Assembly: GCF_025506355.1 (NCBI RefSeq)
Contig: NZ_JANZYP010000023.1
Span: 1-64,000, forward strand
Reading direction: 5' to 3'
From: Sphaerisporangium corydalis
GTDB taxonomy: Bacteria; Actinomycetota; Actinomycetes; Streptosporangiales; Streptosporangiaceae
DNA length: 64,000 nucleotides
A program made the translations under genes and the position numbers. Every line of letters starts with the position of its first letter. Positions within the stretch are counted from its first letter, which is position 1. The notes under the pieces are model-generated. The model was not told the DNA's origin, did no database searches, and was given only the letters and a program-made list of their open reading frames with translations. Below are positions 28,395 to 44,657 of the stretch, piece after piece.

Positions 28395-30320
28395 TCACCC
28401 GGCCTGGGCGGGGACGAGCCTGTCGACGCGGACGGCCGCCGCCTTGAACTCGGCCGTCCCGGCGATGGGGCAGGTCGCCTCGATCGTGAGGGCGTTGGTG
28501 TCCACCTCGTCGGGGAAGTGCATGGTCATGAAGACCAGGCCGGGGCGCAGGCCGGGGTCGATGTGCACCGGCGCGACCACCGAGCCGCGCCGCGAGCTGA
28601 TCCTGGCCTTCTCGCCCTCGGCCAGCCCGAGCCGGGCCGCGTCCTCGGGGGAGAGCTGGACGCGTTCGCCCTGGCGCAGCGGGGAGGCGAACCCGGACGA
28701 CTGCACGCCGGTGTTGTAGGAGTCGAGCGTGCGGCCGGTGGTGAGGCGAAGAGGGTACTCCTCGTCGAGCAGGTCGACGGGGGGTGAGTGGCGCAGGACG
28801 GCGAACGGGGCGGCGGGGCCGCGCCGTGCCGGGTCGCTCTCCCACAGCCGCCCGTGCAGGAACGGGGGTTCCAGGCCGTCCTCCGAGGGGCACGGCCACT
28901 GGATGCCCTGGAGGTCGGCCAGCCTCTGGTAGGTCATCCCGGTGTGCGCGGGCGACAGCGCGCGGACCTCGTCCCACACCTGCTCGGCGCTGTCGTGGTT
29001 CCAGTCGTGGCCGAGGCGGCGGGCGAGGGCGCACAGGATCCAGATGTCGTCACGGGCCTCGCCCGGGGGAGTGATCGCCTGCCGCACGCGCTGCACCCGC
29101 CGCTCGCTGTTGGTGAACGTGCCGTCGCTCTCGCACCAGGCCGCGCCGGCGGGCAGCACGACGTCGGCCATCTGGGCGGTCTTGGTGAGGAAGATGTCCT
29201 GGACGACGAGGTGGTCGAGCATGCTCAGCCGTTTGACGCAGCTCAGCGAGTCGGCCTCGGACTGCACGGGGTTCTCGCCGATGAGGTAGCAGGTGGTGAC
29301 CTCGCCCTCGGCCATGGCCTCCAGCATCTCGGTGAGGTTCAGCCCGTACCTCGGCTGGATCGGCACCTGCCAGGCCCGCTCGAACCTGGCGCGGATCACC
29401 GGGTCGAGGATGTCCTGGAAGCCGGGCAGCCGGTTGGGGATGGCGCCCATGTCGCCGCCGCCCTGCACGTTGTTCTGGCCGCGCAGCGGCGACAGGCCCG
29501 AGCCGTACCGGCCGACGTGGCCGGTGAGCAGGGACAGGTTGATGAGCGCACGCACGTTGTCGGTCGCGTTGTGGTGCTCGGTGATGCCGAGGGTCCAGCA
29601 GAGCTGGGCGCGGTCGGCGCGGGCGTAGGTGTGGGCGAGCTCCCTGATCGCCTCGGCGGGCACCCCGGTCACCTGCTCGGCCGCGGTGAGCGTCCAGGGC
29701 TCCACGGACGCGGCGAACTCCTCGTAGCCGGTGGTGGCGCGCTCGATGAAGGCCGTGTTCCGCAGGCCGGCGTGGATGATCTCACGCGCGACCGCGTGGG
29801 CGAGCGGGATGTCGGTGCCGACGTTCAGCCCGAGCCACCGGTCGGCCCACTGGGCCGTGCCGGTGCGGCGGGGGTCGACGGCGAACATCCTGGCGCCCTT
29901 GTGCACGCCCTTGAGCACGTGGTGGAAGAAGATCGGGTGGGCGTCGCGCGCGGCCGACCCCCACAGGACGATGACGTCGGCGTCCTCGACCTCCTGGTAG
30001 GAGGAGGTGCCGCCGCCGCTGCCGAAGGCGGCCGACAGGCCGGCGACGCTCGGCGCGTGGCAGGTGCGGTTGCAGGAGTCGACGTTGTTGGTGCCGGCCA
30101 CGACGCGGGTGAACTTCTGCGCCACGTAGTTCATCTCGTTGGTGGAGCGTGCGCACGACAGCATGGCGAAGGCGTCGGGGCCGTGGCGGCCGATGTTGCG
30201 GCGGAAGCCCTCGGCGGCGCGGTCGAGCGCCTCCTCCCAGGTGGCCCGCCGCAGGACGCCGTCCTCGCGCACGAGGGGGTGGGTCAGCCGGTCGTAGTGC
30301 TCGGCTCGGTTCTTCTTCAC
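28395..30320 (-). CDS. formate dehydrogenase catalytic half, molybdopterin oxidoreductase (split)
   Basis: Mo/W-bis-MGD subunit of 641 residues that oxidises formate to CO2. The active-site segment SCNRTCHAPS puts Cys87 and His88 where family members have catalytic Cys/Sec-His. The domain continues through the cofactor-binding core (WGSAARDAHPIFFHH, GENPVQSEAD) to the MopB-type C-terminal domain. It lacks the N-terminal Fe-S region, including the Cys motif of the first cluster, which is encoded at 25511-26476. The GTG at 30320 follows GGAGG by 8 bases and an operator-like palindrome lies upstream, so this is the first gene of the fdh operon. Confidence 0.92.
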   Translation of the reverse strand: MKKNRAEHYDRLTHPLVREDGVLRRATWEEALDRAAEGFRRNIGRHGPDAFAMLSCARSTNEMNYVAQKFTRVVAGTNNVDSCNRTCHAPSVAGLSAAFGSGGGTSSYQEVEDADVIVLWGSAARDAHPIFFHHVLKGVHKGARMFAVDPRRTGTAQWADRWLGLNVGTDIPLAHAVAREIIHAGLRNTAFIERATTGYEEFAASVEPWTLTAAEQVTGVPAEAIRELAHTYARADRAQLCWTLGITEHHNATDNVRALINLSLLTGHVGRYGSGLSPLRGQNNVQGGGDMGAIPNRLPGFQDILDPVIRARFERAWQVPIQPRYGLNLTEMLEAMAEGEVTTCYLIGENPVQSEADSLSCVKRLSMLDHLVVQDIFLTKTAQMADVVLPAGAAWCESDGTFTNSERRVQRVRQAITPPGEARDDIWILCALARRLGHDWNHDSAEQVWDEVRALSPAHTGMTYQRLADLQGIQWPCPSEDGLEPPFLHGRLWESDPARRGPAAPFAVLRHSPPVDLLDEEYPLRLTTGRTLDSYNTGVQSSGFASPLRQGERVQLSPEDAARLGLAEGEKARISSRRGSVVAPVHIDPGLRPGLVFMTMHFPDEVDTNALTIEATCPIAGTAEFKAAAVRVDRLVPAQAG

Positions 30321-30349: not shown

Positions 30350-30381
30350 AGAATACCGTATGCAATCTACGGTATGTATTC
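30350..30381 (-). promoter_or_regulatory. operator site A and promoter of the fdh operon
   Basis: The top strand shows ATACCGTATGC (30353-30363) and TACGGTATG (30368-30376), an inverted pair matching the other sites of the region. A -10-like TATTCT reads on the minus strand at 30355-30350 inside the site, 30 bases before the GTG start, so a bound regulator would cover the promoter. Confidence 0.6.
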
Positions 30382-31371
30382 CTAGGACGCGGGCACAAGG
30401 TTGCGCCGCACCTGCTCGTCCAACAGGTCGGTCACCGCGTGGATCGAGCGCAGCGCGGGCACTTCGGTGCCGGTCAGGTCTGCCAGCTCGACCACCGCCG
30501 ACAGCAGGACGTCCAGCTCCAGCGGCTTGCCCTTCTCCAGGTCCTGGAGGGTGGAGGTCTTGTGCTCGCCGGCCCGCTCGGCCCCGGCGATGCGGCGCTC
30601 GATGGAGATGTTCGGGTCGCATCCGACCCGCCGGGCCACCTCGACCGTCTCGCGCATCATCGCCACGACCAGCTCCCGGGCACGGCGGTGCCGGCAGATG
30701 CCGGCCATGGTCGCCCGGGCCAGCGCGCTGATCGGGTTGAACGCGATGTTGCCCATCAGCTTGATCCAGATGTCCTGCCGCAGGTCGGGCTCGACCGGGC
30801 ACTTGAGCCCGCCCTCGATCATGGCCGCGCTGAAGTCGGCGCAGCGGCCGGACGGGGAGCCGTCGGGCTCGCCGATCGAGAAGCGCGTGCCCTCGAGGTG
30901 GCGGACCACGCCGGGGGCCTCGATCTCGGTGGCGGCGTAGACGACGCAGCCGATCGCGCGTTCCAGGGGGAGCGCGGCGGTGACCGCCCCGTCCGGGTCG
31001 ACGCTCTGGACGCGGTACCCCTCATAGGGGCCGGGCAGGCGGTGGAAGTACCACCAGGGGATGCCGTTCTGGGCGGCGACGATGGTGGTGGTCTCGTGGA
31101 GCAGGGGGCGGACCATCGGCCCGGCCGCCGCGTAGGCGTTGGCCTTCAGCCCGAGGAAGACGTGGTCGACCGGCCCGATCTCGCTCGGGTCGTCGGTGGC
31201 GTGGGGGTGGGCGGTGAAGTCGCCCCGGGGGCTCAGCACGCGCACACCGGACTCGCGCATGGCGGCGAGATGTGCCCCTCGGGCGACGAGATGCACCTCG
31301 GCGCCCGCCCTCTGCAGGGCGGCGCCCACGTACGCGCCGATGGCACCGGCGCCAAGAACAGCGACCTTCAT
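30382..31371 (-). CDS. PanE/ApbA-family reductase, candidate oxalyl-CoA reductase
   Basis: 329-residue NAD(P)-dependent reductase of the ketopantoate reductase family. It has the Rossmann motif GAGAIGAYVGAAL at the start, LKANAY with the first lysine and the IKLMGNIAFNP motif with catalytic Lys and Asn. By name it would make pantoate, but it sits between the formate dehydrogenase operon and an oxalate-CoA operon. In Methylobacterium extorquens the PanE2 protein of an oxalate cluster was shown to reduce oxalyl-CoA to glyoxylate. The same role here would feed the glyoxylate genes at 42964-46378. The family is sure; the substrate is inference. Confidence 0.85.
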   Translation of the reverse strand: MKVAVLGAGAIGAYVGAALQRAGAEVHLVARGAHLAAMRESGVRVLSPRGDFTAHPHATDDPSEIGPVDHVFLGLKANAYAAAGPMVRPLLHETTTIVAAQNGIPWWYFHRLPGPYEGYRVQSVDPDGAVTAALPLERAIGCVVYAATEIEAPGVVRHLEGTRFSIGEPDGSPSGRCADFSAAMIEGGLKCPVEPDLRQDIWIKLMGNIAFNPISALARATMAGICRHRRARELVVAMMRETVEVARRVGCDPNISIERRIAGAERAGEHKTSTLQDLEKGKPLELDVLLSAVVELADLTGTEVPALRSIHAVTDLLDEQVRRNLVPAS

Positions 31372-31398
31372 GAAGCAGCTCCGGTCTCGCGTCGATGA

Positions 31399-31421
31399 TT
31401 GTATTCGGTATACAGTATGGA
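31399..31421 (-). promoter_or_regulatory. operator site B upstream of the PanE-family gene
   Basis: TTCGGTATACAGTATGG (31404-31420) contains the core GGTATAC and the flank GTATGG found in the other sites. It is about 30 bases before the ATG at 31371. The stretch 31422-31554 to the next site has no gene. Confidence 0.55.
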
Positions 31422-31554
31422 AAAGTTCGGGTCAAGGATCCTGGCGGCGACCGGGCGCCGATCCCCTCGTGGGGCGGGCTTCGCGGTCACATCGGCGCGA
31501 GAGCCGCCGTGAATGGGTCTGGACAACACGTCGCGAGGGGGTTAACGATGGCTC

Positions 31555-31577
31555 TCATACGGTATGCAGTATGCACT
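31555..31577 (+). promoter_or_regulatory. operator site C upstream of the oxalate-CoA operon
   Basis: CATACGGTATGCAGTATGC (31556-31574) matches site F at most positions. It ends 20 bases before the ATG at 31595, so a repressor bound here would block the promoter or early transcription of the ThDP-frc-synthetase operon. Confidence 0.6.
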
Positions 31578-31594
31578 TTGAAAGGATGGACCCG

Positions 31595-33298
31595 ATGTCC
31601 CAAGCAGTGACCCAGCCCGCAGAGCCCGCCCCCGAGCGCATCTCGGGCGGTCACCTCGTGGCCAAGGCCCTGAAGGCTGAGGGCGTCGATGTGATCTTCA
31701 CGCTGTGCGGCGGCCACATCATCGACATCTACGACGGCTGCGTCGACGAGGGCATCGAGGTCATTGACGTGCGCCACGAGCAGGTGGCCGCGCACGCCGC
31801 CGACGGCTACGCGCGGATCACCGGCAAACCCGGGTGCGCGGTGGTGACGGCCGGCCCCGGCACCACCGACGCGGTCACGGGCGTGGCCAACGCCTTCAGG
31901 GCCGAGAGCCCCATGCTGCTGATCGGCGGGCAGGGCGCGCTCAGCCAGCACAAGATGGGCTCGCTGCAGGACCTCCCGCACGTCGACATGATGACGCCGA
32001 TCACCAAGTTCGCGGCGACGGTCCCCTCGACCGAGCGGGTGGCCGACCTGGTGTCCATGGCCTTCCGCGAGTGCTACCACGGCGCGCCGGGGCCGTCGTT
32101 CCTGGAGATCCCGCGCGACGTGCTAGACGCCACGGTCCCGCTCGACAAGGCGCGCATCCCCAAGGCGGGGCACTACCGCGCCTCCACGCGCCAGGCCGGC
32201 GACCCCGCCGCGATCGAGCGCCTCGGCGACCTCATCGCCCACTCCGAGAAGCCCTGCGTCCTGCTGGGCAGCCAGGTGTGGACGTGCAGGGCCACCGCCG
32301 ACGCCGTCGACTTCGTCCGCGCGCTCAACGTGCCGGCGTACATGAACGGCTCGGGCCGGGGCACGCTGCCGCCCGGCGACCCGCACCACTACCAGCTCTC
32401 CCGGCGGTACGCGTTCTCCAACGCGGATCTGATCATCATCGTGGGGACGCCCTTCGACTTCCGCATGGGCTACGGCAAGCGGCTGTCCGACGACGCGACC
32501 GTCGTGCAGGTCGACCTCGACTACCGCACCGTCGGCAAGAACCGCGACATCGACCTCGGCATCGTCGGCGACGCCGGCCTGGTGCTCGCGGGCGCGGCCG
32601 CCGCGGCGACCGGCAGGGAGGACAACGGCAGCGCCCGGCGCAAGAGGTGGATGGAGGAGCTGCGCGAGGTCGAGACCAAGGCGTTCGAGAAGCGGTTGCC
32701 CCGCCAGCTCTCCGGCTCCCGCCCGATCGACCCCTACCGGCTCGTCCACGAGATCAACGAGTTCCTCACCGAGGACACCATCTACATCGGCGACGGCGGC
32801 GACATCGTCACCTTCTCCGGCCAGGTCGTGCAGCCGAAGTCGCCGGGCCACTGGATGGACCCCGGCCCGCTCGGCACCCTCGGCGTCGGCGTGGCGTTCG
32901 CGATGGCGGCCAAGCACGCCCGCCCGGACAAGGACGTGGTCGCCCTGTTCGGCGACGGCGCCTTCAGCCTCACCGGCTGGGACTTCGAGACCATGGTCCG
33001 CTTCGACCTGCCGTTCATCGGCGTCGTCGGCAACAACTCCTCGATGAACCAGATCCGCTACGGCCAGGCCGCCAAGTACGGCGAGGCCAGGGGCCGGGTC
33101 GGCAACACCCTCGGCGACGTCAGGTACGACGAGTTCGCGCGCATGCTCGGCGGTCACGGCGAGGAGGTCCGCGACCCGGACGACATCCGTCCCGCGCTTG
33201 AGCGGGCCCGCGCGTCGGGCAAGCCGGCGCTGATCAACGTATGGATCGACCCGGACGTCTACGCCCCCGGGACCATGAACCAGACGATGTACAAGTAG
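31595..33298 (+). CDS. ThDP-dependent enzyme, candidate oxalyl-CoA decarboxylase
   Basis: 567-residue thiamine diphosphate enzyme of the acetolactate synthase/oxalyl-CoA decarboxylase superfamily. It shows the activating Glu62 in RHEQVAAHAADGY and the ThDP-Mg motif GDGAFSLTGWDFET...NN starting near residue 453. Length equals known oxalyl-CoA decarboxylases (~568), but the sequence is not close to the Oxalobacter enzyme as I recall it. Being the first gene before frc, the natural reaction is oxalyl-CoA to formyl-CoA and CO2. A 2-hydroxyacyl-CoA lyase or a synthase is possible. ATG 31595 lies 8 bases after AAAGGA. Confidence 0.75.
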   Translation: MSQAVTQPAEPAPERISGGHLVAKALKAEGVDVIFTLCGGHIIDIYDGCVDEGIEVIDVRHEQVAAHAADGYARITGKPGCAVVTAGPGTTDAVTGVANAFRAESPMLLIGGQGALSQHKMGSLQDLPHVDMMTPITKFAATVPSTERVADLVSMAFRECYHGAPGPSFLEIPRDVLDATVPLDKARIPKAGHYRASTRQAGDPAAIERLGDLIAHSEKPCVLLGSQVWTCRATADAVDFVRALNVPAYMNGSGRGTLPPGDPHHYQLSRRYAFSNADLIIIVGTPFDFRMGYGKRLSDDATVVQVDLDYRTVGKNRDIDLGIVGDAGLVLAGAAAAATGREDNGSARRKRWMEELREVETKAFEKRLPRQLSGSRPIDPYRLVHEINEFLTEDTIYIGDGGDIVTFSGQVVQPKSPGHWMDPGPLGTLGVGVAFAMAAKHARPDKDVVALFGDGAFSLTGWDFETMVRFDLPFIGVVGNNSSMNQIRYGQAAKYGEARGRVGNTLGDVRYDEFARMLGGHGEEVRDPDDIRPALERARASGKPALINVWIDPDVYAPGTMNQTMYK

Positions 33299-33310
33299 GG
33301 AAACCAGGAG

Positions 33311-34537
33311 ATGAGCAGAGCACTCGAAGGCGTGCGCGTCCTCGACATGACCCACGTGCAGTCCGGTCCGTCCTGCACCCAGATCCTCGGCTGGCTCGGC
33401 GCCGACGTCGTCAAGCTCGAGTCGCCCTCGGGCGACGTCACCCGCGGGCAGCTCCGCGACGTGCCGGGCGTGGACAGCCTCTATTTCACGATGCTCAACT
33501 GCAACAAGAAGAGCATCACGCTCAACATGAAGAGCGAGCGCGGCAAGGAGATGTTCACCGGGCTGGTCCGCGAGGCGGACGTCCTGGTGGAGAACTTCGG
33601 CCCCGGCGCGGTGGACCGCATGGGCTTCACCTGGGAGCGGCTGCGCGAGCTCAACCCCCGCCTGGTCTACGCGTCGATCAAGGGGTTCGGCCCCGGCCGG
33701 TACGCCGACTTCAAGGCCTACGAGGTGGTCGCCCAGGCCATGGGCGGCTCCATGAGCACCACCGGCTTCGAGGACGGCCCGCCGCTGGCGACCGGCGCCC
33801 AGATCGGCGACTCCGGCACCGGCGTGCACACCGTGGCGGGCATCCTCGCCGCCCTCTACCAGCGCGAGCACACCGGCCGGGGGCAGCGCGTCCAGGTGGC
33901 CATGCAGCACGCCGTGCTGAACCTGTGCCGCGTCAAGCTGCGCGACCAGCAGCGGCTGTCGCACGGCGCGCTGGCCGAGTACCCCAACCGCACGTTCGCC
34001 GAGGAGGTGCCCCGGTCGGGCAACGCCTCGGGCGGCGGCCAGCCGGGCTGGGCGGTCAAGTGCGCCCCCGGCGGCCCGAACGACTACATCTACGTGATCG
34101 TGCAGCCGCCCGGCTGGCGGCCGATCGCCCAGATCATCGGGCGTCCCGAGCTGGCGGAGGACCCCGAGTGGGCCACGCCCGAGGCCCGGCTGTCCAAGCT
34201 CGACAAGATGTTCCAGCTCATCGAGGAGTGGACGAGCCTGCACGGCAAGTGGGCGGTGCTCGACGCGCTCAACGCCGAGAACATCCCGTGCGGCCCGATC
34301 CTGTCGACCAAGGAGCTCATCGAGGACGAGACGCTCAGGAGCCAGGGCGTGATCGTCGACGTGGAGCACCCCGAGCGCGGGAGGTTCACCACGGTCGGCA
34401 GCCCCATCCAGCTCTCGGACTCCCCGGTCACCGTCACCACCCCGCCCCTGCTGGGCGAGCACAACGCCGAGGTCTACGCGGGACTCGGCCTGTCCGCCGG
34501 CGACCTCGCGGAGCTGCGACAGAACGGAGTGATCTGA
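33311..34537 (+). CDS. frc: formyl-CoA:oxalate CoA-transferase
   Basis: Class III CoA-transferase moving CoA from formyl-CoA (or succinyl-CoA) to oxalate. The 408 residues match Frc strongly at [46 protein letters not shown], the glycine loop [11 protein letters not shown] and IPCGPI. Asp167 in GDSGTG corresponds to the catalytic Asp169 of the Oxalobacter enzyme. It begins 12 bases after the ThDP gene and stops directly at the ATG of the next gene. This is the best evidence that the cluster handles oxalate. Confidence 0.92.
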
Positions 34538-36670
34538 ATGGCCGGTAGCGGTGACACGGTCCGCGAGGTCCTGGACAAGGCCCGGGCCGAGGGCCGTACG
34601 GCGCTGACGGCCCCCGAGGGCAGGAAGATCTGCGAGGCGTACGGCATCGTCACCCCCGGGGAGGGCCTGGCCACCACGGCGGACGAGGCGCTGGCCATCG
34701 CGGCCGGCATCGGGTTCCCGGTCGTGATGAAGATCGTCTCCCCGGACATCCTGCACAAGACCGAGGCCGGCGGCGTCATCGTCGGGCTGCGCACGCCCGA
34801 GGAGGTGCGCGCGGGCTACGACCAGATCATGGCCGCGGCCGGCGCCTACGACGCCGACGCGGCGATCGACGGCGTCCAGGTGCAGCGCATGATCGGCGCC
34901 GGGCACGAGGTGATCATCGGCGCGGTCACCGACCCGACGTTCGGCAAGATCGTGGCCTTCGGCCTCGGCGGCGTGCTGGTGGAGGTGCTCAAGGACGTGA
35001 CCTTCCGGCTGGCGCCGCTCACGCGCGGCGAGGCCCTCGGGATGCTGGACGACATCAAGGCGGCCGAGGTCCTGCGCGGGGTGCGCGGCGCCGAGGCGGC
35101 CGACCGGGAGGCGCTGGCCGCGATGATCGAACGGGTCGGCGCGCTCGTCGCCGACTTCCCGGAGATCTCCGAGGTCGACCTCAACCCCGTATTCGCGAGC
35201 GCGTCAGGGGCGACGGCCGCCGACGTGCGCGTCCTGCTCGACCCCGAGCCCGTGCGGCCGGTGGAGCGGCTCTCGCGCACCGAGATCCTCGCCTCGATGA
35301 ACCGCATCTTCAAGCCGAGGTCGGTCGCGGTGATCGGCGCGTCGGCCGAGACCGGCAAGATCGGGAACTCGGTGATGCGCAACCTCCTCGACGGCGGCTA
35401 CCGGGGCCAGGTCTTCCCGATCAACCCCAAGGCGTCCGGCATCATGGGCCTGCCCGCCTACGCGAGCATCGCCGACGTGCCGTTCGAGGTGGACGTCGCG
35501 GTGTTCGCGATCCCGGCGAAGTTCGTGGCCGCCGCCCTGGAGGAGGCGGGCGCCAAGGGCGTGGCCGGAGCCATCATGATCCCCTCAGGTTTCGCCGAGA
35601 CCGGCAACCACGAGGGCCAGGCCGAGATCGTCGAGATCGCCCGCCGGCACGGCACGCGGCTGCTCGGGCCCAACATCTACGGCTATTACTACACGCCGGA
35701 GAACCTCTGTGCGACGTTCTGCACGCCCTACGACGTGAAGGGCGGCGTGGCGCTCACCTCCCAGAGCGGCGGCATCGGCATGGCCATCCTCGGCTTCAGC
35801 CGCACCACCAAGATGGGCGTGTCGGCGATCGTCGGCGTGGGCAACAAGGCCGACATCGACGAGGACGACCTGCTCACCTTCTTCGAGCAGGACGAGAACA
35901 CCCACTGCGTGGCCATGCACATGGAGGACCTCAAGGACGGGCGCGGCTTCGTCGAGGCCGCGCGGCGCGTCTCACGCCACAAGCCGGTGATCGTGCTCAA
36001 GGCCGGGCGCACCGCCATGGGCGCCCGCGCGGCGGGCTCGCACACCGGCGCACTCGCCGGCGACGACAAGGTGTACGACGACATCCTGCGCCAGGCGGGG
36101 GTCGTCCGGGCGCCCGGGCTGAACGACATGCTGGAGTACGCGCGCTCCCTTCCGCTGATGCCCACCCCCCAAGGGGAGAACGTCGTCATCATCACGGGCG
36201 CGGGCGGCTCGGGGGTGCTGCTGTCCGACGCCTGCGTCGACAACGGGCTGACCCTCATGGAGATCCCGGAGGACCTCGACCAGGCATTCCGGGCGTACAT
36301 CCCCCCGTTCGGCGCGGCCGGCAACCCGATCGACATCACCGGCGGCGAGCCCCCGAGCACCTACGCCAACACCGTCAGGCTGGGGCTGTCCGACCCCCGG
36401 ATCCACGCGCTGGTACTCGGCTACTGGCACACGATCGTCACCCCGCCGATGGTCTTCGCCGAGCTGATCGCCCGCGTGGTGGCCGAGGAGCGGGCCAAGG
36501 GCAACGAGAAGCCCGTGGTCGCCTCGCTGGCCGGGGACACCGAGGTCGAGGAGGCCTGCGCCTACCTGTTCGACCACGGCGTCGTGGCCTACCCCTACAC
36601 GACCGAGAAGCCCGTCGCCGTGCTCGGCGCCAAGTACCGCTGGGCCAGGGCGGCGGGCCTGCTCGGCTGA
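34538..36670 (+). CDS. NDP-forming acyl-CoA synthetase, beta-alpha fusion
   Basis: 710-residue acetate-CoA ligase (ADP-forming) type enzyme. The ATP-grasp part comes first (about 1-240, HKTEAGG with His73) and the CoA-binding and ligase part second (from about 255, SVAVIGAS; phospho-His502 in SHTGALAG). These enzymes make acyl-CoA from acid, ATP and CoA. Abutting frc, it could make oxalyl-CoA or prime the pathway with another acyl-CoA, or recover ATP from acyl-CoA. The natural acid is unknown. The adenine of its ATG directly follows the frc stop. Confidence 0.85.
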   Translation: MAGSGDTVREVLDKARAEGRTALTAPEGRKICEAYGIVTPGEGLATTADEALAIAAGIGFPVVMKIVSPDILHKTEAGGVIVGLRTPEEVRAGYDQIMAAAGAYDADAAIDGVQVQRMIGAGHEVIIGAVTDPTFGKIVAFGLGGVLVEVLKDVTFRLAPLTRGEALGMLDDIKAAEVLRGVRGAEAADREALAAMIERVGALVADFPEISEVDLNPVFASASGATAADVRVLLDPEPVRPVERLSRTEILASMNRIFKPRSVAVIGASAETGKIGNSVMRNLLDGGYRGQVFPINPKASGIMGLPAYASIADVPFEVDVAVFAIPAKFVAAALEEAGAKGVAGAIMIPSGFAETGNHEGQAEIVEIARRHGTRLLGPNIYGYYYTPENLCATFCTPYDVKGGVALTSQSGGIGMAILGFSRTTKMGVSAIVGVGNKADIDEDDLLTFFEQDENTHCVAMHMEDLKDGRGFVEAARRVSRHKPVIVLKAGRTAMGARAAGSHTGALAGDDKVYDDILRQAGVVRAPGLNDMLEYARSLPLMPTPQGENVVIITGAGGSGVLLSDACVDNGLTLMEIPEDLDQAFRAYIPPFGAAGNPIDITGGEPPSTYANTVRLGLSDPRIHALVLGYWHTIVTPPMVFAELIARVVAEERAKGNEKPVVASLAGDTEVEEACAYLFDHGVVAYPYTTEKPVAVLGAKYRWARAAGLLG

Positions 36671-36973
36671 ACCCCCGGAAGGCGCCGGGCGGAAGGTCCG
36701 CCCGGCCGGGCCCGGAGAGTACCGGGCGGTGGGCCTTCTGGCCGGTCCACCGCCCTCCCGCCCTCCGCGCCGCCTTCCGCGCACCAGATCGACCGCGTCC
36801 GCACCGCCCCGTGCGGGGCGGGAAAGGAGGCCCGTATGTCCACGTGCACATGATCATCCCCCCGGTCGCGTGACCGGGGGAGAGGTCGCCGGTCGCGGTC
36901 AGCCGCGCCGGCCGGGATCGACAGGACGCCGGGGGACAGGGAGCAATGGTCAGCGCCGAGGAAAGCAGTTCAC
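36671..36973. other. 303-base intergenic region with hairpins
   Basis: No gene is supported. The stretch holds a terminator (36684-36706), a CCGGGC repeat, and a 9-base stem CCCCCGGTC-GCGT-GACCGGGGG (36859-36880) in the leader of the antiporter gene. No copy of the oxalate-region operator was seen here, so the antiporter may have its own control. Confidence 0.6.
36684..36706 (+). terminator. terminator after the acyl-CoA synthetase gene
   Basis: A perfect 10-base stem, GCCGGGCGGA with TCCGCCCGGC, and an AGG loop lie 13 bases after the stop codon. Confidence 0.7.
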
Positions 36974-38359
36974 ATGACCACAGTGGTACCAAGTCATCAG
37001 GAGATCACCGACAGTAACGGCCGTGTCTACCGGATCGGCGAGAGCCCCCGGGACATCATGGGACGGCCACGCTGGCTGATGGTCCTCCTGCCGTGGATCG
37101 GCATGATGGGCATCAGCGTCTCGGAGTACGCATTCGGCTCCGCCGAGGAGACGTTGCACGACGCGCACGGGTGGTCCTCCACCAACATCTTCTGGCTGCT
37201 CAGCGTCTGGGTGTTCTTCCAGGCGGCGGTGGCCTTCCCCGCCGGGTACCTCCGGGAGACCGGCAGGCTCTCGGCCAGGGCGGCCATGATGCTCGGGGCG
37301 GGCGGCGCCTTCCTCGGCTACCTCGCGCTGAGCCACGCGCCCAGCATCTTCTGGGCCTACCTCGGGTTCGGCCTGTTCGGCGGCGGAGGCGCCGGGCTGG
37401 TGTACGCCACATGCATCAACATGGTCGCCAAGTGGTTCCCCGAGCGGCGCGGCGGCAAGACCGGGTTCGTCAACGGCGGGTTCGCCTACGGTTCGGTGCC
37501 GTTCGTCTTCATCTTCACCACCTACATGCACACCGAGAACTACCAGTCCGTGCTGGACCTGGTCGGGGTGTACGTCCTGGTCGCCGTGCTCGTCAGCGGG
37601 CTGTTCTTCAAGGATCCGCCGAAGAACTGGTGGCCCGCGCACGTCGACCCGTTACGCGGTCAGGTCAGCTCGCGCAGCCTGCGCAAGAACCCGCCGGCGG
37701 TGCGTCAGTACACGCCGAGGGAGGCCGTGCGCACCGGCATGCTCCCGCTGATGTGGGTGTGCCTGCTGTTCACGGCGGGCGTGAACATCTTCGGCATCGC
37801 CTTCCAGGTCCCGTTCGGAAAGGAGATGGGTTTCGCCGGCGGCATCGTCGCCCTGGCGATGAGCCTGAAGGCCATCGTGAACGGCACCGGGCGCGGCGTC
37901 ATCGGCTGGATCTCCGACCTGGCCGGACGGCGTCAGACGCTCACCATCGTGTGCGTGATCCTGGGGCTGGCCCAGTTCGCGGTGCTGTGGTCGGGGTCGA
38001 TCCACAACATGCCGTTATTCCTGCTCTCCTCCATGGTCTCCGGCTTCGGCGGCGGGGCGATCTTCCCGCTGTTCGCGGCCATGACGGCCGACTACTTCGG
38101 TGAGAACAACAACGCCACCAACTACGGTCTGGTCTACTCCTCCAAGCTGGTCAGCGGCCTGCTCGGATCGGGGATGGGCGCGGTCGTGGTCGGCGCCTGG
38201 GGGTACGGCGGCGCGTTCGTCATCGCGGGAGGCACCAGCCTGCTGGCGGGCGCGCTCTCGCTGATCCTGCGTCAGCCGGGACGGCCGCGCAGCGCCACGG
38301 CGGCGCCCGTGCCGTCCGGCGCGACCCTGACACCCGCGTCCGAACAGGCTTCTGGCTGA
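36974..38359 (+). CDS. OxlT-like MFS transporter (oxalate:formate antiporter family)
   Basis: 461-residue major facilitator protein with 12 predicted helices. The N-terminal tail (about 30 residues) precedes WLMVLLPWIGMMGISVSEY, and the loop AKWFPERRGGKTGF between helices 4 and 5 is typical of the OFA (oxalate/formate antiporter) family. With frc upstream, uptake of oxalate against formate or a proton is the likely role. The ATG at 36974 follows GAGGAAAG. It ends convergent to the GntR gene. Confidence 0.82.
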   Translation: MTTVVPSHQEITDSNGRVYRIGESPRDIMGRPRWLMVLLPWIGMMGISVSEYAFGSAEETLHDAHGWSSTNIFWLLSVWVFFQAAVAFPAGYLRETGRLSARAAMMLGAGGAFLGYLALSHAPSIFWAYLGFGLFGGGGAGLVYATCINMVAKWFPERRGGKTGFVNGGFAYGSVPFVFIFTTYMHTENYQSVLDLVGVYVLVAVLVSGLFFKDPPKNWWPAHVDPLRGQVSSRSLRKNPPAVRQYTPREAVRTGMLPLMWVCLLFTAGVNIFGIAFQVPFGKEMGFAGGIVALAMSLKAIVNGTGRGVIGWISDLAGRRQTLTIVCVILGLAQFAVLWSGSIHNMPLFLLSSMVSGFGGGAIFPLFAAMTADYFGENNNATNYGLVYSSKLVSGLLGSGMGAVVVGAWGYGGAFVIAGGTSLLAGALSLILRQPGRPRSATAAPVPSGATLTPASEQASG

Positions 38360-38563
38360 GCCCGCGGACACGGCGTAGAGATCGGCTCGTTGGTCCGGCC
38401 TGACCGGAGGTTCAGGCGTGCGGCGACGCGTCGGCCGTCATGAGGGCGTCCCCTGCTCTCGGCGGCCGGCGCGTCGCCACACGCCTCCCCGGCGCGAAGT
38501 ACGCGAAGTAGATGAAATGCCTTCTCGTCGAATCTCCTCCTCGGATGTTTCGCCGGAGCGAGC

Positions 38564-38580
38564 CATGAATGACGTTCATG
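38564..38580. other. short inverted repeat between convergent genes
   Basis: CATGAA-TGACG-TTCATG lies directly next to the GntR stop codon. It may contribute to termination. The rest of 38360-38563 shows no gene. Confidence 0.3.
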
Positions 38581-39327
38581 TCAATTCCCGAGCGCGGCGG
38601 GGGCCCGCCGCTTCCTGCGCTTGCTCGGGAGCGGCTCGGCGGGCTCGTCCTCGCCGAGCTGGCTCAGGTAGAGGTGGCGGGTCTGTTCGGTGTGGTTCTT
38701 CATGATCTCGCCGGCCTGGTCCTCGTCGCCGTCGGCGATGGCGGCGATCAGGGCGGCGTGCTCCTCCCAGGAGGCCCGGCCGCGCTGGCGGGCCACCGGC
38801 GTGTGGTACCACCGGACCCTGCGGGACACCTGGGCGGCGAGGTCGCTCAGCACCATGTTGCCCGAGAGCTCCATCACGGTGGCGTGGAGCTCGGAGTTGA
38901 TCGCCACGGCGCCCTCGACGTCGTCGGCCTCCACGGCGGCCAGGCCGCGCGAGCACAGGGCGCGCAGCAGGGCCACGCCCTCCTCGGTGTGGTGACGGGC
39001 CGCCAGCCGCGCGGCCTCGGTCTCCAGCAGCGCGCGCACGGCGAGGAGCTGGTCGGCCTCCTCGGCGGTGGGGGCGTGCACGAACGCGCCGTGGCCGGGG
39101 TGCAGGTCGACCCACCCCTCACCGCTGAGGAGCTGCAGCGCCTCTCTGATCGGCTGCCTGGACACGCCCAGCATCTCGGCGAGCTCGCTCTCGGCGAGAT
39201 GCTGTCCGGGGCGCAGATGGCTGCTGATGATGAGTTCGAGCAGCGCCTCGAAGACGCTCTCTCTGAGCGGGACAGGACGCGCGATCTTGGGTGCGGCTGC
39301 CTTGCCCGCCAGATCCGACCGCGACAT
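38581..39327 (-). CDS. GntR/FCD-family regulator, probable controller of the oxalate region
   Basis: 248-residue transcription factor. An N-terminal winged helix (about 20-80; SELAEMLGVSRQPIREALQLL) is joined to an FCD ligand domain (about 95-215) with conserved metal-binding residues such as the His in SELHATVMELSGN. FCD regulators often bind small organic acids. The ATG at 39327 follows GGAG by 5 bases; the open frame to 39387 was not used. An operator-like site lies upstream of this gene as well, so it may control itself. Basic tail KRRKRR at the end. Confidence 0.9.
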   Translation of the reverse strand: MSRSDLAGKAAAPKIARPVPLRESVFEALLELIISSHLRPGQHLAESELAEMLGVSRQPIREALQLLSGEGWVDLHPGHGAFVHAPTAEEADQLLAVRALLETEAARLAARHHTEEGVALLRALCSRGLAAVEADDVEGAVAINSELHATVMELSGNMVLSDLAAQVSRRVRWYHTPVARQRGRASWEEHAALIAAIADGDEDQAGEIMKNHTEQTRHLYLSQLGEDEPAEPLPSKRRKRRAPAALGN

Positions 39328-39359
39328 TTCAACTCCAGAACGGTGACGGGTGCGCCGGA

Positions 39360-39387
39360 TGCGTACCCACTTGTTGTTTTTCGTCAA
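39360..39387 (-). promoter_or_regulatory. candidate promoter of the GntR gene
   Basis: On the minus strand TTGACG (39387-39382) and TACGCA (39365-39360) are 16 bases apart. The operator-like site D lies immediately upstream of the -35. Confidence 0.4.
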
Positions 39388-39390
39388 CTG

Positions 39391-39410
39391 CCTACAGCAT
39401 ACAGTCTTGA
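39391..39410 (-). promoter_or_regulatory. operator-like site D upstream of the GntR gene
   Basis: The minus strand reads ACTGTATGCTGTAG, a weaker relative of the region's operator (GTATGC core, GTA spacing). It is about 65 bases from the GntR ATG and next to its -35. The match is partial. Confidence 0.4.
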
Positions 39411-39435
39411 TTGGCTCGCTCTAAGGTGAGCCCGA

Positions 39436-40737
39436 TCACACACCGGTGGGCAGGGTGGCCGGGCGCCCCGGCACCCGCAGGTTCCGGCTGGCGGTCGCCG
39501 TGAGCGCCGCGACCAGCGCCGCGAGCGTGAACGCGGCCGGCAGGCTCGCCGTCGTCCAGGCCGCCGCCGCGAGCCCGACGCCGATCAGCCCGGCGACCGC
39601 CTTGGTGCTGTAGACCACGCCATGGATCTCCGCCGTGCGCTCCTCGCCGAAGAAGTCGCGCACCAGGCCGGCGATGAGCGGGTAGAACGCGCCGCCTCCC
39701 GCGCCCGCCAAAGCGGCCCCGATGAGCAGGGCGGCGGCCGAACCCGTGGCCGAGCCGACCGCGAGCGGGAGCTGGCCGGCGCAGAGCACGGCGAGGACCG
39801 CGGCGAGCACGCGCCTGCGCCCGGCGACCTCGGAGACCACCATCGCGCACGCGCGCCCCGCGCCGTTGAGCGTGATCAGCAGGGTGAGCCCGGCCCACGG
39901 CGCCGCGCCGCCCGCCGACGCGACCGCGACCACGTCGAAGACCGAGACCGCGCCCGCGAAGACCAGGATCGCCGCCAGCTTGGACAGCGCGCCGGTGCGC
40001 AGCGCCTGGCCCATGGAGAACTGGCGCACGGCGGGCGGGGTCCTGCGCAGCATGAGCCGGTCGAGCGCGTGCCGGCGGGGGTCGACCCCGGCGGGCCACC
40101 AGTGCGGCGGGGGGAGCCGGACGAACACGGCGGCGGTTCCGACGGCGGCCAGCGCGACCAGCGCGGACACGGCGAACGCCGGCCCGAGGTGGCGGGGGAC
40201 GAGACCGGCGACCACGGCGAGCGGCGCGGCGCCGTAGGCGTAGGCGCCGGTCACGAAGCCGACCCGCGTCGCGGGCCGTTCGGGGTACCAGCGCGCGACC
40301 GTCTCGGTGCAGACCCCGTACACCAGGCCGCCGCCGACGCCGCCGAGCAGCGCGTACCCGGCCGCCGCCACCGGCGAGCCGCCGGGCAGGGCGACCGCGA
40401 GCAGACCCGCGGCGCTCAGCGCGGCCCCCGCCCAGAGCGCGGCGCGCACGCCGAGCGCGCCGCGTCGCAGCAGGCGGATCGTGGGGATCGCGGCGGTGGC
40501 CTGGCAGACGATCCAGACCGCCAGCGGCGCCAGGACCGAGAGGACCGGGCCGCCGCGCGAGGCGAGCAGGGCGGGCGCCGCCGCCGCGTACCCGTACTGC
40601 AGGGGGGCGATGGCGAGCATCGCGGCCCAGGGCAGCCAGAACATCCAGGCCCTCGACCGGCCGAGCAGGTGCCGGTCGCTCTGCCCTACGAGGTAGGGAC
40701 GGCCGCGCCAGTCACGGATCAGCTGTGTTTTCTCCAT
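39436..40737 (-). CDS. second OxlT-like MFS transporter
   Basis: 433-residue major facilitator protein with 12 predicted helices and the same layout as the antiporter at 36974: a WFPER-like loop ([14 protein letters not shown]) and the PHWWP segment before a central loop ending [16 protein letters not shown]. The two are paralogues, but this one is more Ala-rich and diverged, so it may carry glyoxylate, glycolate or another acid. Its ATG (40737-40735) lies inside palindrome E and has no ribosome binding site, so the mRNA is probably leaderless. Divergent from the sucC-like operon. Confidence 0.8.
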
Positions 40738-40746
40738 ACTGTATGG
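40734..40746. promoter_or_regulatory. operator site E over the transporter start codon
   Basis: CCATAC-T-GTATGG is a perfect 13-base palindrome containing the start codon of the minus-strand transporter. It shares CATACTGTAT with site B. Confidence 0.6.
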
Positions 40747-40784
40747 AATAACTCTGATGGGATCGCCTGTCGAGGCCTGGACGG

Positions 40785-40820
40785 CGGTTCTTCCATACGG
40801 TATACCGTATGGAAGAACCG
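40785..40820. promoter_or_regulatory. 36-base perfect palindrome, operator site F
   Basis: Positions 40785-40802 and 40803-40820 are exact reverse complements, 18 bases each, with no spacer. The central 20 bases are CCATACGGTATACCGTATGG, the best copy of the motif seen in sites A-E. It ends 14 bases before the sucC-like ATG and lies between two divergent transcripts, so it can control both. It could fold as a cruciform, but the shared core favours a protein-binding site. Confidence 0.75.
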
Positions 40821-40833
40821 TAAGAGGAGTCGC

Positions 40834-42006
40834 ATGGACCTGTTCGAGTACCAGGCGAAGGAGCTCTTCGCGCGGCACGGCGTCCCCGTCCCGCGCGGCC
40901 GCGTCGCGTCCACGCCCGAGGAGGCACGGGCGGTCGCGGCGGAGCTGCGGACGCCGACCGTGATCAAGGCCCAGGTGAAGACCGGGGGCCGTGGCAAGGC
41001 GGGCGGGGTGCGCCCCGCGCCCGGCCCGGCCTCCGCCGAGGTCGAGGCCGCGCGGGTGCTCGGCATGGACATCAAGGGGCTCACCGCCCTGACGGTGCTC
41101 GTCGAGCAGGCCACGGTGCCGTTGGAGGAGTACTACGCGGCCTATCTGGTGGACCGGGCGGGCGGTGCCTTCATCGCGATCGTGTCCGCCGAGGGCGGCA
41201 TGGACATCGAGGAGGTGGCCGCCACCCGGCCGGACGCGCTGGTCACGACGCCGGTCGATCCCGCCGTCGGCATGGACGGCAGGTCGGCGCGGCTGCTCGC
41301 GTCGCGCGCCGGGCTCCCCGCCGACGTCCAGGACGCGGTCGCCGACGTGCTGGTCCGCCTGTGGCGGGTCCTCGTCGAGGAGGACGCGCTGCTGGTCGAG
41401 GTCAACCCGCTGGCCGTCACGCCGGACGGCCGCGTGCTCGCCCTCGACGGGAAGGTCACGCTCGACGACAACGCCGCCTTCCGGCACGGGCACGACGCGT
41501 TCGCCGAGGTGCCCGCGGCGCACGGCGCGGCGGGGCTGGAGGCCAGGGCCAAGGCCAGAGGGCTCAACTACGTCAAGCTCGACGGCGAGGTGGGCGTCAT
41601 CGGCAACGGCGCGGGCCTGGTCATGTCGACCCTCGACGTCGTGGCCTACGCCGGCCAGTCCTCCGGCGGCGCGCGGCCCGCCAACTTCCTCGACATCGGC
41701 GGCGGCGCGTCCGCGCAGGTGATGGCCGACGCCCTGGAGATCGTCCTGTCCGACCCGGACGTGCGGGCCGTGCTGGTCAACGTCTTCGGCGGCATCACCG
41801 CCTGCGACGCGGTCGCCCACGGCATCGTCTCGGCCCTCGGGATGCTCGGCGAGCACGGCGTGCGCCACCCGATCGTGGTCCGCCTGGACGGCAACAGCGC
41901 CGAGGCCGGGCGCGCCGTCCTCCACGCGGCCGGGCATCCGCTGGTCCGCGTCGTCGCGACCATGGACGCCGCCGCGGAGCTCGCGGCGAGCCTGGCCGCC
42001 GCGTGA
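40834..42006 (+). CDS. succinyl-CoA synthetase beta-like subunit (catabolic paralogue)
   Basis: 390-residue ATP-grasp subunit of an acyl-CoA synthetase. It shows [19 protein letters not shown], the [15 protein letters not shown] loop, the [13 protein letters not shown] metal site and FGGITACD. It starts 14 bases after palindrome F and heads an operon with hyi, garR and a gcl-like gene, so it is not the TCA-cycle copy. Possible roles: making succinyl-CoA as CoA donor for frc, or activating oxalate, malate or glycerate. The substrate cannot be told from the sequence. Confidence 0.88.
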
Positions 42007-42067
42007 ACGGCATCGGCCTGCGGGCATTCGAGGCGGGCCGCGTGGGCGGCCGGGAGGAGCAGCGACG

Positions 42068-42967
42068 ATGGCCATCTTCCTGACCAAGGACAGCAAGGTG
42101 CTCGTCCAGGGCATGACCGGTGCGGAGGGCGCCCGGCACACCGCGCGGATGCTCGCCGCCGGGACCGAGATCGTGGCCGGGGTCACCCCCGGCAAGGGCG
42201 GCAGGTCGGTCGACTTCGGGGAGCGCGCGCTTCCCGTCTTCGGTTCGGTGGCTGAGGCGACGGCCGCGACCGGCGCCGAGGTGTCGGTCGTCTTCGTGCC
42301 GCCGAGGTTCACGCGCGACGCCGTCGAGGAGGCGGTGGACGCGGGCGTGGCGCTGTGCGTGGTGATCACTGAGGGCGTGCCGGTCCACGACACGATCCGG
42401 TTCGTGGCCCGCGCCCGGGCCTCGGGGACCACCCGGATCATCGGCCCGAACTGCCCGGGACTGATCAGCCCCGGGCAGTCGAGCGCGGGCATCATCCCGG
42501 CGGACATCACCACGGCGGGTCGTATCGGGTTGGTGAGCAAGTCGGGGACGTTGACGTACCAGTTGATGTACGAGCTGCGTGATGTGGGTTTCTCGACGGC
42601 GGTGGGCATCGGTGGTGACCCGGTGATCGGGACGACGCACATCGACGCGCTGGAGGCGTTCCAGGCGGATCCGGGTACCGAGGCGATCGTGATGATCGGT
42701 GAGATCGGCGGGGACGCGGAGGAGCGTGCGGCGGCCTACATCGAGGAGCACGTGACCAAGCCCGTGGTGGCCTATGTGGCGGGGTTCACCGCGCCTGAGG
42801 GTAAGACGATGGGTCATGCCGGGGCGATCGTGTCGGGTTCCGCGGGGACGGCGCAGGCCAAGAAGGAGGCGCTGGAGAAGGTCGGTGTGCGGGTCGGCAA
42901 GACCCCCAGCGAAACCGCCCGCCTCATGCGCGCGCTCCTCGGTGGGTCCGGGCGGGGTGGCGTGTGA
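42068..42967 (+). CDS. succinyl-CoA synthetase alpha-like subunit (catabolic paralogue)
   Basis: 299-residue alpha subunit with the CoA-binding start [12 protein letters not shown], the NCPGLISPG motif and phospho-His250 in GHAGAIVSG. It pairs with the preceding beta-like subunit. Base use is mosaic: between about 42520 and 42895 many codons end in T or G (CGT, GGT, GAT, TTG), unlike both flanks, as if this part came from another copy. The GTG of hyi overlaps its stop. Confidence 0.9.
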
Positions 42968-43782
42968 GGGGCGGGGGAGTGGGGGCGGGGCTCCGGTTCG
43001 ATGTCAACCTGTCCATCCTGTTCACCGAGCTGCCGCTGCTGGAGCGGCCGGGAGCGGCGGCCAAGGCCGGGTTCGACGCCGTCGAGCTGTGGTGGCCGTT
43101 CGACCGGCCGGATCCGCCCGAATCGGACCTGGACGCCCTGCGGCGGGCCATCGAGGACGCCGGGGTCCGCCTGGTCGGGCTGAACTTCGACGCCGGCGAC
43201 ATGGGCGCGGGCGACCGCGGCCTGCTGTCGCGTCCCGGTGACGCCGACCGGTTCCTCGCCAACGTCGACGTCGCCGCCGGGTTCGCCGGGTCGCTCGGCT
43301 GCCGGGTGCTGAACGCGCTGTACGGCAACCGGGTGCCCGGCCTGCCGGAGGCGGCCCAGCGCGAGCTGGCGCTCGCCACCCTCTCCCGGGCGGCGGGCGC
43401 GGCGGCGAAGGCCGGCGCCACGGTCGTGGTCGAGGCGCTCAACTCCTACGAGAACCCCGGCTACCCGATCACGTCCTCGGCCGCCGCGTTCGCGCTCATC
43501 GAGCAGGTGGGCGCCCCCAACCTCGCCTTCCTCGCCGACCTGTACCACCTGCACCGCATGGGAGAGGACGTGCCCGCGTTGATCGACCGCGACGCCGGCC
43601 GGTTCGGCCACGTGCAGATCGCCGACGACCCCGGCAGGGGCCGGCCCGGCTCGGGCGCCATGCCGTACGACCTGATCTTCGCGCGCCTGGCCGCCGCCGG
43701 ATACCGGGGCCACGTCGGTCTCGAGTACCGGCCGGCCGGTCCCAGCGCGGAGAGTTTCACCTGGCTGGAGGAGACCCCTTGA
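42964..43782 (+). CDS. hyi: hydroxypyruvate isomerase
   Basis: 272-residue TIM-barrel isomerase of the hydroxypyruvate isomerase/xylose isomerase-like family. It begins [18 protein letters not shown] and carries the metal-site glutamate in [14 protein letters not shown] plus a late YIGLEY-like segment (HVGLEYRP). It interconverts hydroxypyruvate and tartronate semialdehyde. GTG 42964 overlaps the stop of the preceding gene; GTG 42979 would give a shorter start. Followed by garR and a gcl-like gene, the usual glyoxylate grouping. Confidence 0.88.
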
Positions 43783-44657
43783 CGATCACGCGAACGGCGT
43801 TCATCGGGCTCGGGATCATGGGCGGGCCGATGGCGGCCAACCTGGTCCGGGCCGACTATGACGTGACCGGGTACGACATGAGCCGCGAGGCGGTGGAGCG
43901 CCTGGTCGCCGCCGGCGGCAGGGCGGCGGCGTCGGTACCCGAGGCGGTGGCCGGCGCGGACGTGGTGATCACCATGCTGCCCGACTCGCCCCAGGTCGAG
44001 GAGGTCGCGTTCGGCGGCGACGGGCTGCTGGAACACGGCAAGCCCGGCATGTTCCACGTGGACATGAGCACCATCAAGCCCGAGACGTCCTGCCGGGTGG
44101 CCCAGGCGGCGACGATCAAGGGGATCCGGCCGCTCGACGCCCCGGTGAGCGGCGGCGAGCGCGGCGCGGTCGACGGCACGCTCTCGATCATGGCCGGTGG
44201 CCACGCGGACGACTTCGAGGCGCTCCGCCCGCTGTTCGGGGTCCTCGGCACGACGGTCCGGCACGTCGGCCCCTCCGGCGCGGGGCAGACCGTCAAGGCG
44301 GCCAACCAGCTCGTGGTCGGCGGGATCTTCGGCCTGGTCGCGGAGGCGATCGTCCTGCTGGAGGCCTCGGGCGTCGACCCGGAGAGCGGGCTCGACGTGC
44401 TCGCGGGCGGGCTGGCCGGCTCGCGGATCCTCGAACTCCGGCGGCACTCCATGATCAAAAGGGAGTTCGCGCCGGGTTTCCGTATCGACCTGCACCACAA
44501 GGACATGGGCATCGTGCTGGCCGCCGCGCGCCGCGCGGGCGTCGCCCTTCCCCTCACCGGCCTGGTCGCCGAGCTCATGGCCGCCGCCAAGGCCCAGGGG
44601 CACGGCCACCTCGACCACTCCGCGCTGCTCAAGGTGATCGAAAGGATCAACGGGTGA
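43779..44657 (+). CDS. garR: tartronate semialdehyde reductase
   Basis: 292-residue beta-hydroxyacid dehydrogenase reducing tartronate semialdehyde to D-glycerate with NAD(P)H. It starts TAFIGLGIMGGPMAANLVRA (Rossmann motif); DAPVSGGERGAVDGTLSIM binds substrate and GAGQTVKAANQL supplies the catalytic lysine. The TTG at 43779 overlaps the hyi stop and is preceded by GGAGGA; the stop overlaps the next GTG. All three genes are tightly coupled. Confidence 0.92.
   Translation: MTITRTAFIGLGIMGGPMAANLVRADYDVTGYDMSREAVERLVAAGGRAAASVPEAVAGADVVITMLPDSPQVEEVAFGGDGLLEHGKPGMFHVDMSTIKPETSCRVAQAATIKGIRPLDAPVSGGERGAVDGTLSIMAGGHADDFEALRPLFGVLGTTVRHVGPSGAGQTVKAANQLVVGGIFGLVAEAIVLLEASGVDPESGLDVLAGGLAGSRILELRRHSMIKREFAPGFRIDLHHKDMGIVLAAARRAGVALPLTGLVAELMAAAKAQGHGHLDHSALLKVIERING

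Follow-up and report, generated by a model that had tools for sequence, protein, structure and literature searches.

A palindromic operator repeated across an oxalate gene block of Sphaerisporangium corydalis is probably read by the neighbouring GntR/FCD regulator

Introduction

FCD regulators of the GntR superfamily include Atu1419 of Agrobacterium fabrum, whose ligand is N5,N10-methylenetetrahydrofolate, and NanR of Escherichia coli. Atu1419 is a VanR-type protein that binds palindromes over -10 boxes and forms a tetramer able to loop DNA; its site, ATGTATACAT, is a single 10-mer whose centre is even (PMC7797058). NanR represses through the cooperative binding of three dimers to a tandem (GGTATA)3 array; the cooperativity requires a 32-residue N-terminal extension, and the ligand is N-acetylneuraminate (PMC8012715). 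Here we describe six related sites, A to F, in an oxalate gene block of Sphaerisporangium corydalis, together with the GntR/FCD gene, gntR, that lies among them (38581-39327). The block belongs to a 64,000-nucleotide stretch, positions 1 to 64,000 of contig NZ_JANZYP010000023.1, which is called the window throughout. The gntR product resembles Atu1419 in its predicted VanR-type FCD domain, in an aligned Glu/Arg/Arg set, in palindromes over apparent -10 boxes and in GTATAC steps, and differs from it in that an odd dyad, ATACNGTAT, recurs here every 7 base pairs (bp).

For oxalate use itself, the nearest described gene sets are those of Methylobacterium extorquens (PMC8411744) and Cupriavidus necator (PMC7486775). 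Both contain oxc and a candidate oxalyl-coenzyme A (CoA) reductase of the PanE2/ApbA2 type, PanE2 being the putative enzyme in Methylobacterium and apbA2 lying near frc-oxc in C. necator, which also has frc and a gcl-hyi2-tsr operon. The main text of the C. necator paper does not use the word GntR, and no regulator of this kind for oxalate is described in the titles and abstract openings of the papers listed in our survey, which left most subscription papers outside. Unlike what is described for these two species, the glycerate operon, the formate dehydrogenase genes and the transporters here share one operator with oxc-frc. We put the probability that sites A to F are operators of one regulon read by the gntR product at about 0.83, and operators and regulator together very probably constitute a single on/off switch for oxalate use.

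Results and discussion

Operator sites in the window and the genome

An earlier note on this DNA had proposed six palindromic operators before the fdh, panE, oxc-frc-acd, gntR, mfs2 and sucCD-hyi-tsr-gcl units. All six were found, at coordinates that were exact or a few bases off, and their placement before these units holds (Table 1). The shared core survives in part: the sites are indeed related, and their best common core is ATACNGTAT, mostly doubled with a 7-bp offset. The unit that had been proposed, GGTATACC/GGTATGCA, was rejected because GGTATACC is missing from A and E, whereas ATACNGTAT or a near match to it suits all six sites.

Exact copies of ATACNGTAT lie at 30353 (A), 31410 (B), 31557 (C), 40736 (E), and 40795 and 40802 (F), all within 10.5 kb; this makes six in the window against a mean of 0.03 and a maximum of 1 in 100 dinucleotide shuffles. 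Site D has no exact core and shows two mismatches to the doubled motif, and site A consists of two imperfect dyads 14 bp apart, both in the window and in seven relatives in the upstream alignment. With up to three mismatches allowed, and with strands and overlapping registers each counted separately, the doubled 16-mer matched the window 20 times against a shuffle mean of 0.80; 17 of these matches fall on sites A to F and the other three lie at 44712 and 49506 (both strands).

In the 9.48-Mb genome ATACNGTAT is found at 12 places, six of them within the block (binomial P ~2e-15), and a reversed control pattern at six. The doubled motif with at most two mismatches occurs at 15 places (reversed control, 2 per strand), namely A, B, C, D and F, one before an OFA-type transporter gene on another contig (L010) and nine others outside the block, of which only one (also in L009) was inspected; E is not included. 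When no more than one mismatch is allowed, the doubled form ATACNGTATNCNGTAT is found at four places (B, C, F and L010) and its control at none. The genome-wide search that the note had suggested thus speaks against a random scatter of the motif, since the core is rare and clustered in the block.

Conservation upstream of transcription units

We scored a named set of 46 loci wherever a gene start and its upstream DNA were present, looking for an exact core within 150 bp upstream. Matches had to start by residue 30, reach at least 45% identity and have at least 100 upstream bases, and L165, whose partial match reached 39%, contributed none; gene starts were extrapolated from tblastn and are inexact. 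For the upstream alignments, matches starting past residue 16 or under set identities were excluded. Since L159 and L162 overlap on one contig, one Pseudonocardia panE-oxc-frc-acd region was present twice and was merged. An exact core was found upstream of oxc in 39/39 distinct regions (40/40 before merging), upstream of sucC in 38/38 and upstream of panE in 12/13 (13/14 before merging), the thirteenth having one mismatch to the doubled motif. It was also found upstream of mfs2 in 36/36 regions, where the stretch searched can include F. Upstream of gntR, the 16-mer within three mismatches is present in 39/45 regions, as compared with 1.3% of shuffles. No exact core was detected upstream of the operon-internal genes frc (0/40), acd (0/39), sucD (0/38), hyi (0/38), tsr (0/38) and gcl (0/37), and mfs1 has no operator in the window and no exact upstream core in its four named regions. 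The sites are retained where the gene order has changed: in Pseudonocardia (L159, L161, L162) panE and oxc are divergent and the upstream site is common to both, and five loci with 55-63% gntR identity (L080, L081, L083, L084, L085) have an exact core upstream of panE.

Co-occurrence of motif and regulator

We screened 200 genomes of the order, of which 81 contain the exact doubled motif (reversed control, 1) and 98 a gntR orthologue (E <=1e-50). Both occur in 79 genomes, the motif only in 2, gntR only in 19 and neither in 100 (Fisher p 1.9e-34, with kinship ignored). Because close relatedness inflates such p-values, we place weight on counts and contrasts. In a set of 80 relatives that includes the genome of the window, with gntR at E <1e-50 and up to one mismatch in the doubled motif, 24 have both, 9 gntR only, 7 the motif only and 40 neither. 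Within this set frc is carried by 20 genomes; gntR is present in 19 of them, each of which also contains the doubled motif. By GntR protein, the nearest named relatives are a Sphaerisporangium metagenome-assembled genome, S. album and S. perillae.

Several observations weigh against a regulon for oxalate read by the gntR product. The exact core lies upstream of fdhA in only two of four named regions. Site D is weak, six of the 45 gntR regions being beyond three mismatches and none having an exact core. The exact doubled motif is missing from 19 of the 98 genomes with gntR; of three of these that were inspected, G102 and G151 carry gntR close to fdhD, with neither oxc nor frc on the stretch examined (the third, G215, has a one-mismatch site before oxc). 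The seven relatives with the motif and without gntR have it at one or two scattered places each. G007 and G008, which enter the 80-relative set as motif genomes through a ATCCTGTATACCGTAT site near a GntR paralogue, have a 68-69% gntR orthologue and no frc, so the protein may serve another role there. A CRP-type box at an activating position before a repressor gene, described below, is hard to fit to simple induction, and the protein encoded by mfs3, an unlinked gene with a site of this kind, scores just above an L-lactate transporter cut-off (325.8 versus 320 bits), which does not indicate oxalate.

Two of these points, the weakness of gntR's own site and the 19 genomes without the motif, favour one regulon whose sites are read by another regulator encoded elsewhere, with gntR merely travelling along as a target or neighbour. 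We consider this improbable, because the block proteins that were scanned include no regulator other than gntR and because the exact doubled motif occurs without it in just two of the 200 genomes, G124 and G157. In both, oxc and frc lie with their sites on short contigs, and the G124 contig stops 1165 bases past the panE site, whereas gntR starts 1344-1470 bases past this site in six congeners. Moreover G011, the sole frc genome among the 80 relatives without a close gntR orthologue (best GntR match 35%), has no doubled motif, and the site of the FCD relative Atu1419 is near the GTATAC steps seen here (PMC7797058). The link that the note had drawn between the sites and the GntR/FCD gene of the block is thus supported by upstream conservation, by the 200-genome co-occurrence and by the contrast with G011.

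The regulator

The gntR product has matches to GntR (PF00392, 8.1e-20) and FCD (PF07729, 5.6e-27) and is on this basis assigned to the FCD family of the GntR superfamily. None of the 21 listed NCBIfam models for named GntR regulators (PhnR, NanR, LldR, GlcC and others) is above its cut-off, the best reaching 107.2 versus 271.5 bits and the NanR model 92.8 versus 260 bits. The predicted structure (mean predicted local distance difference test score 81) has six FCD helices after the winged helix. FadR-type FCD domains carry an extra helix relative to the VanR type (PMC7797058), and the model of the gntR product corresponds to a VanR-type regulator. In a structure search the lowest E-value belongs to Atu1419 on DNA (6za3, template modelling (TM) score 0.63), and a Brucella GntR protein (7u5q) has a higher TM score, 0.74. 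The best fold matches are these two proteins together with Lar, PmiR, McbR and AlkR, with FadR structures lower and NanR a weaker match than Atu1419. E46, R57 and R61, which are invariant in two alignments of the protein, align with the DNA-contacting Glu34, Arg45 and Arg49 of Atu1419. In addition, H148, H190 and H212 are invariant in both alignments, and N144 is invariant in one and nearly invariant in the other; by analogy the three histidines may belong to a metal-binding FCD pocket.

Apparent promoters and mode of action

Promoter hexamers were read by eye in the upstream alignments and their spacing was then checked with fixed patterns in the named loci, which is a consistency check and not an independent test since data of the same kind had supplied the patterns. 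The -10 apparently lies within A, B, D and F, and C and E apparently lie either in the interval from the -10 to the transcript start or over that start (Table 1). At A, the pattern TTGT / TAC-N-GT with a spacer of 17-18 is present in 8/8 rows (window and seven relatives). In the named rows, TTGACC and TATACC stand before panE with a spacer of 17 in 11/14, TGGACA-17-TAAC precedes oxc in 31/40 with the core of C 8 bp after the -10 in 29/40, TCGACA / TATTCC with a spacer of 17 or 18 precedes mfs2 in 34/36, and the sucC promoter (TGGACG type, TATACC) has a spacer of 17 in 38/38; the remaining rows are off pattern. At the gntR promoter no -35 was identified.

The overlap of an apparent -10 with A, B, D and F, and the fixed -35 spacing at A, B and F, could mean that the sequences are mainly promoter elements, a TANNNT-type -10 inside ATACNGTAT that serves RNA polymerase rather than a regulator. 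This seems very improbable to us, given that at C and E the -10 stands beside a core that is equally conserved, and that two-fold symmetry, a 7-bp register and a rarity of 12 places in 9.48 Mb would not be expected of promoters.

The mfs2 ATG is the end of ATACNGTATG in 12/12 genomes (window included) and in 35/36 named rows; the extrapolated start missed this ATG in 4/36, with an offset ATG in L143, L147 and L150 and none in L161 (45% identity). A Shine-Dalgarno-like sequence at -18 to -4 was found in 0/36 named rows of mfs2 versus 38/38 of sucC. The position of the ATG together with the lack of a Shine-Dalgarno-like sequence suggests that the mfs2 transcript is leaderless and that its start is covered by operator E.

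The likeliest mechanism is repression with autoregulation and an oxalate-derived ligand. The dimer would most likely recognise ATAC-N-GTAT, and with two or more dyads in strict 7-bp register at most sites, adjacent dimers could bind side by side. Protein bound on the -10/+1 region would block RNA polymerase at the fdh, panE, oxc-frc-acd, mfs2, sucCD-hyi-tsr-gcl and gntR promoters until released by a ligand from oxalate metabolism, which may be oxalate, oxalyl-CoA, glyoxylate or formate. Release would then jointly induce uptake, CoA activation, decarboxylation, glyoxylate formation, assimilation by the glycerate pathway and formate oxidation. A VanR-type repressor fits because the operators lie on the -10/+1 of apparent promoters; as regards autoregulation, site D lies over the apparent gntR -10 and is a weak match. 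We infer that one ligand would switch all units, as the note had envisaged. The protein is a candidate oxalate-responsive sensor.

A TGTGA-N6-TCAC box of CRP type is present upstream of gntR in 12/14 aligned genomes and 39/45 named loci; in 37 of the latter 39 it stands 23 or 24 bp before the apparent gntR -10. The windows scored upstream of other genes contain no such box. It is missing in G007 (L075) and G008 (L073), both of which have no cluster beside gntR. Its position (about -43) resembles that of a class II CRP site, and the box suggests a cyclic AMP/CRP-like input into gntR. If CRP activates, the box would raise gntR expression, which would be sensible if the use of a poor carbon source depended on GntR. 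The factor could then be an activator, or of mixed sign, with the bound protein switching units on, and indeed the sign of regulation is unreadable from the bases alone. We nevertheless regard activation as unlikely, since the sites lie on the -10/+1 or on a start codon, where a bound protein normally blocks transcription.

The 7-bp register

While repression of this kind would be an ordinary switch, the unusual part is the register of the dyads. We examined the flanks of 72 distinct exact cores from the oxc, sucC and panE upstream regions and found 68 second cores (at most two mismatches, offsets up to 24, pairs of exact cores counted from both sides), all at multiples of 7 bp, the offsets seen being -21, -7, +7, +14 and +21. 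Shuffled flanks gave eight second cores, four at +/-7 and four elsewhere, so the core itself somewhat favours the +/-7 offset. The sites can also be read as imperfect GTATAC hexamers with one base between them, and Atu1419 binds an even GTATAC palindrome (PMC7797058). Site E contains no GTATAC and a single odd dyad, and so favours ATAC-N-GTAT as the dimer unit. We offer tentatively, and with more doubt than conviction, the idea of a quantised operator in which odd ATAC-N-GTAT dyads stand at exact multiples of 7 bp, each promoter having one to several of them, and their number sets the strength at that promoter. If this is true, dimers would wind around the DNA, a step of 7 bp being two thirds of a helical turn. 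The arrays would then follow an operator grammar new to FCD regulators, and one of the operators would enclose a leaderless start codon. The 7-bp array would in any case be a clean test case for the stacking of FCD dimers on DNA.

Gene content

Judged by protein family, the genes of the block would serve to take up, activate and decarboxylate oxalate, to reduce it to glyoxylate, to run the glycerate pathway and to oxidise formate (Table 1). Above their curated cut-offs are frc, sucC, sucD, tsr and gcl. The oxc-like enzyme is under the Oxc cut-off (TIGR03254, 245 versus 739.4 bits), and its closest solved chains are 2-hydroxyacyl-CoA lyases, followed by oxalyl-CoA decarboxylases. These genes, with a candidate regulator and operator, would provide a full oxalate-assimilation set for soil actinobacteria of the Sphaerisporangium-Nonomuraea group and relatives.

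Formate dehydrogenase alpha is apparently split with its order swapped, the downstream fdhS covering positions 1-50 and the upstream fdhA positions 48-672; separate genes of the fdhS/fdhA type are seen in several relatives too.

Table 1. Operators, apparent promoter elements and genes of the block, in window coordinates.
Feature	Position	Strand	Remarks
fdhD	24684..25532	-	start provisional
fdhS, NuoG-like iron-sulphur protein	25511..26476	-	end aligns to Fdh-alpha 1-50
fdhB, NuoE/NuoF-like formate dehydrogenase subunit	26538..28388	-	
fdhA, formate dehydrogenase alpha, C-terminal part	28395..30320	-	Fdh-alpha 48-672; 638 bits, cut-off 666
Operator A	30353..30375	-	upstream of fdh operon; kept in window and 7 relatives
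Apparent -10 TACCGT	30369..30374	-	overlapped by A
Apparent -35 TTGTGC	30393..30398		spacer 18
panE/apbA-family reductase, candidate oxalyl-CoA reductase	30382..31371	-	family match and PanE2/ApbA2 parallels
Operator B	31403..31418	-	upstream of panE
Apparent -10 TATACC	31407..31412		within B
Apparent -35 TTGACC	31430..31435		spacer 17
Apparent -35 TGGACA	31520..31525		oxc
Apparent -10 TAACGA	31543..31548		C begins 8 bases past it, ~+1
Operator C, ATACGGTATGCAGTAT	31557..31572	+	upstream of oxc-frc-acd
oxc-like thiamine diphosphate enzyme	31595..33298	+	oxalyl-CoA decarboxylase / 2-hydroxyacyl-CoA lyase group
frc, formyl-CoA transferase	33311..34537	+	TIGR03253 659.8 bits, cut-off 504.2
acd, ADP-forming acyl-CoA ligase family protein	34538..36670	+	under all named cut-offs
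mfs1, OFA-type (oxalate/formate) MFS transporter	36974..38359	+	below cut-offs; follows oxc-frc-acd operon
gntR, predicted GntR/FCD (VanR-type) regulator, 248 residues	38581..39327	-	Pfam GntR and FCD
Operator D, AGACTGTATGCTGTAG	39392..39407	-	degenerate; upstream of gntR
Apparent -10 TATGCT	39396..39401		within D
CRP-type box TGTGATCGGGCTCAC	39426..39440	-	24 bp before apparent gntR -10 (centre ~-43); overlaps mfs2 end
mfs2, second OFA-type MFS transporter	39436..40737	-	apparently leaderless; below cut-offs
Operator E, CCATACAGTATGG read on -	40734..40746	-	includes mfs2 ATG (starts 40737)
Apparent -10 TATTCC	40745..40750		at E
Apparent -35 TCGACA	40768..40773		spacer 17
Apparent -35 TGGACG	40778..40783		spacer 17
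Operator F, CTTCCATACGGTATACCGTATGGAAG	40790..40815	+	26-bp perfect palindrome; upstream of sucC
Apparent -10 TATACC	40801..40806		within F
sucC-sucD-hyi-tsr-gcl operon	40834..46378	+	succinate-CoA-ligase subunits, hydroxypyruvate-isomerase-like, tartronate semialdehyde reductase, glyoxylate carboligase

Sites outside the block

A seventh, unlinked site, ATACAGTATTCCGTAG (L010:2760-2775, on contig C115 of the same genome, G000), lies directly before the OFA-type transporter gene mfs3. Like sites beside the same gene in three relatives, G005 (L104), G003 (L105) and G013 (L109), make mfs3 a credible candidate member of the regulon, and it exemplifies how the operator eases the finding of members outside the cluster.

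Five further exact cores (L005-L009) are found elsewhere in the genome. They lie on stretches that encode no relatives of the block proteins, and we set them aside as chance occurrences or as sites of other regulators. In L006 (3990-4020) the core is within a longer palindrome, GTACGATACTGTATCGTAC, just 5' of a TetR-like gene adjoining a monooxygenase-like gene (both judged from translations alone), and this palindrome is probably the operator of that TetR-like regulator. In G007 (L111:3019) and G008 (L112:2967), ATCCTGTATACCGTAT stands between a permease-like gene and the stretch towards the GntR paralogue (34-36% identity), of which it is maybe the operator. Finally, ATACAGTAGCCGGTAT, with one mismatch to the doubled motif, occurs inside the frc coding region at L115:3286, L167:4742 and L168:2719, where it may be either a coincidence of the protein-coding sequence or an operator within the gene.

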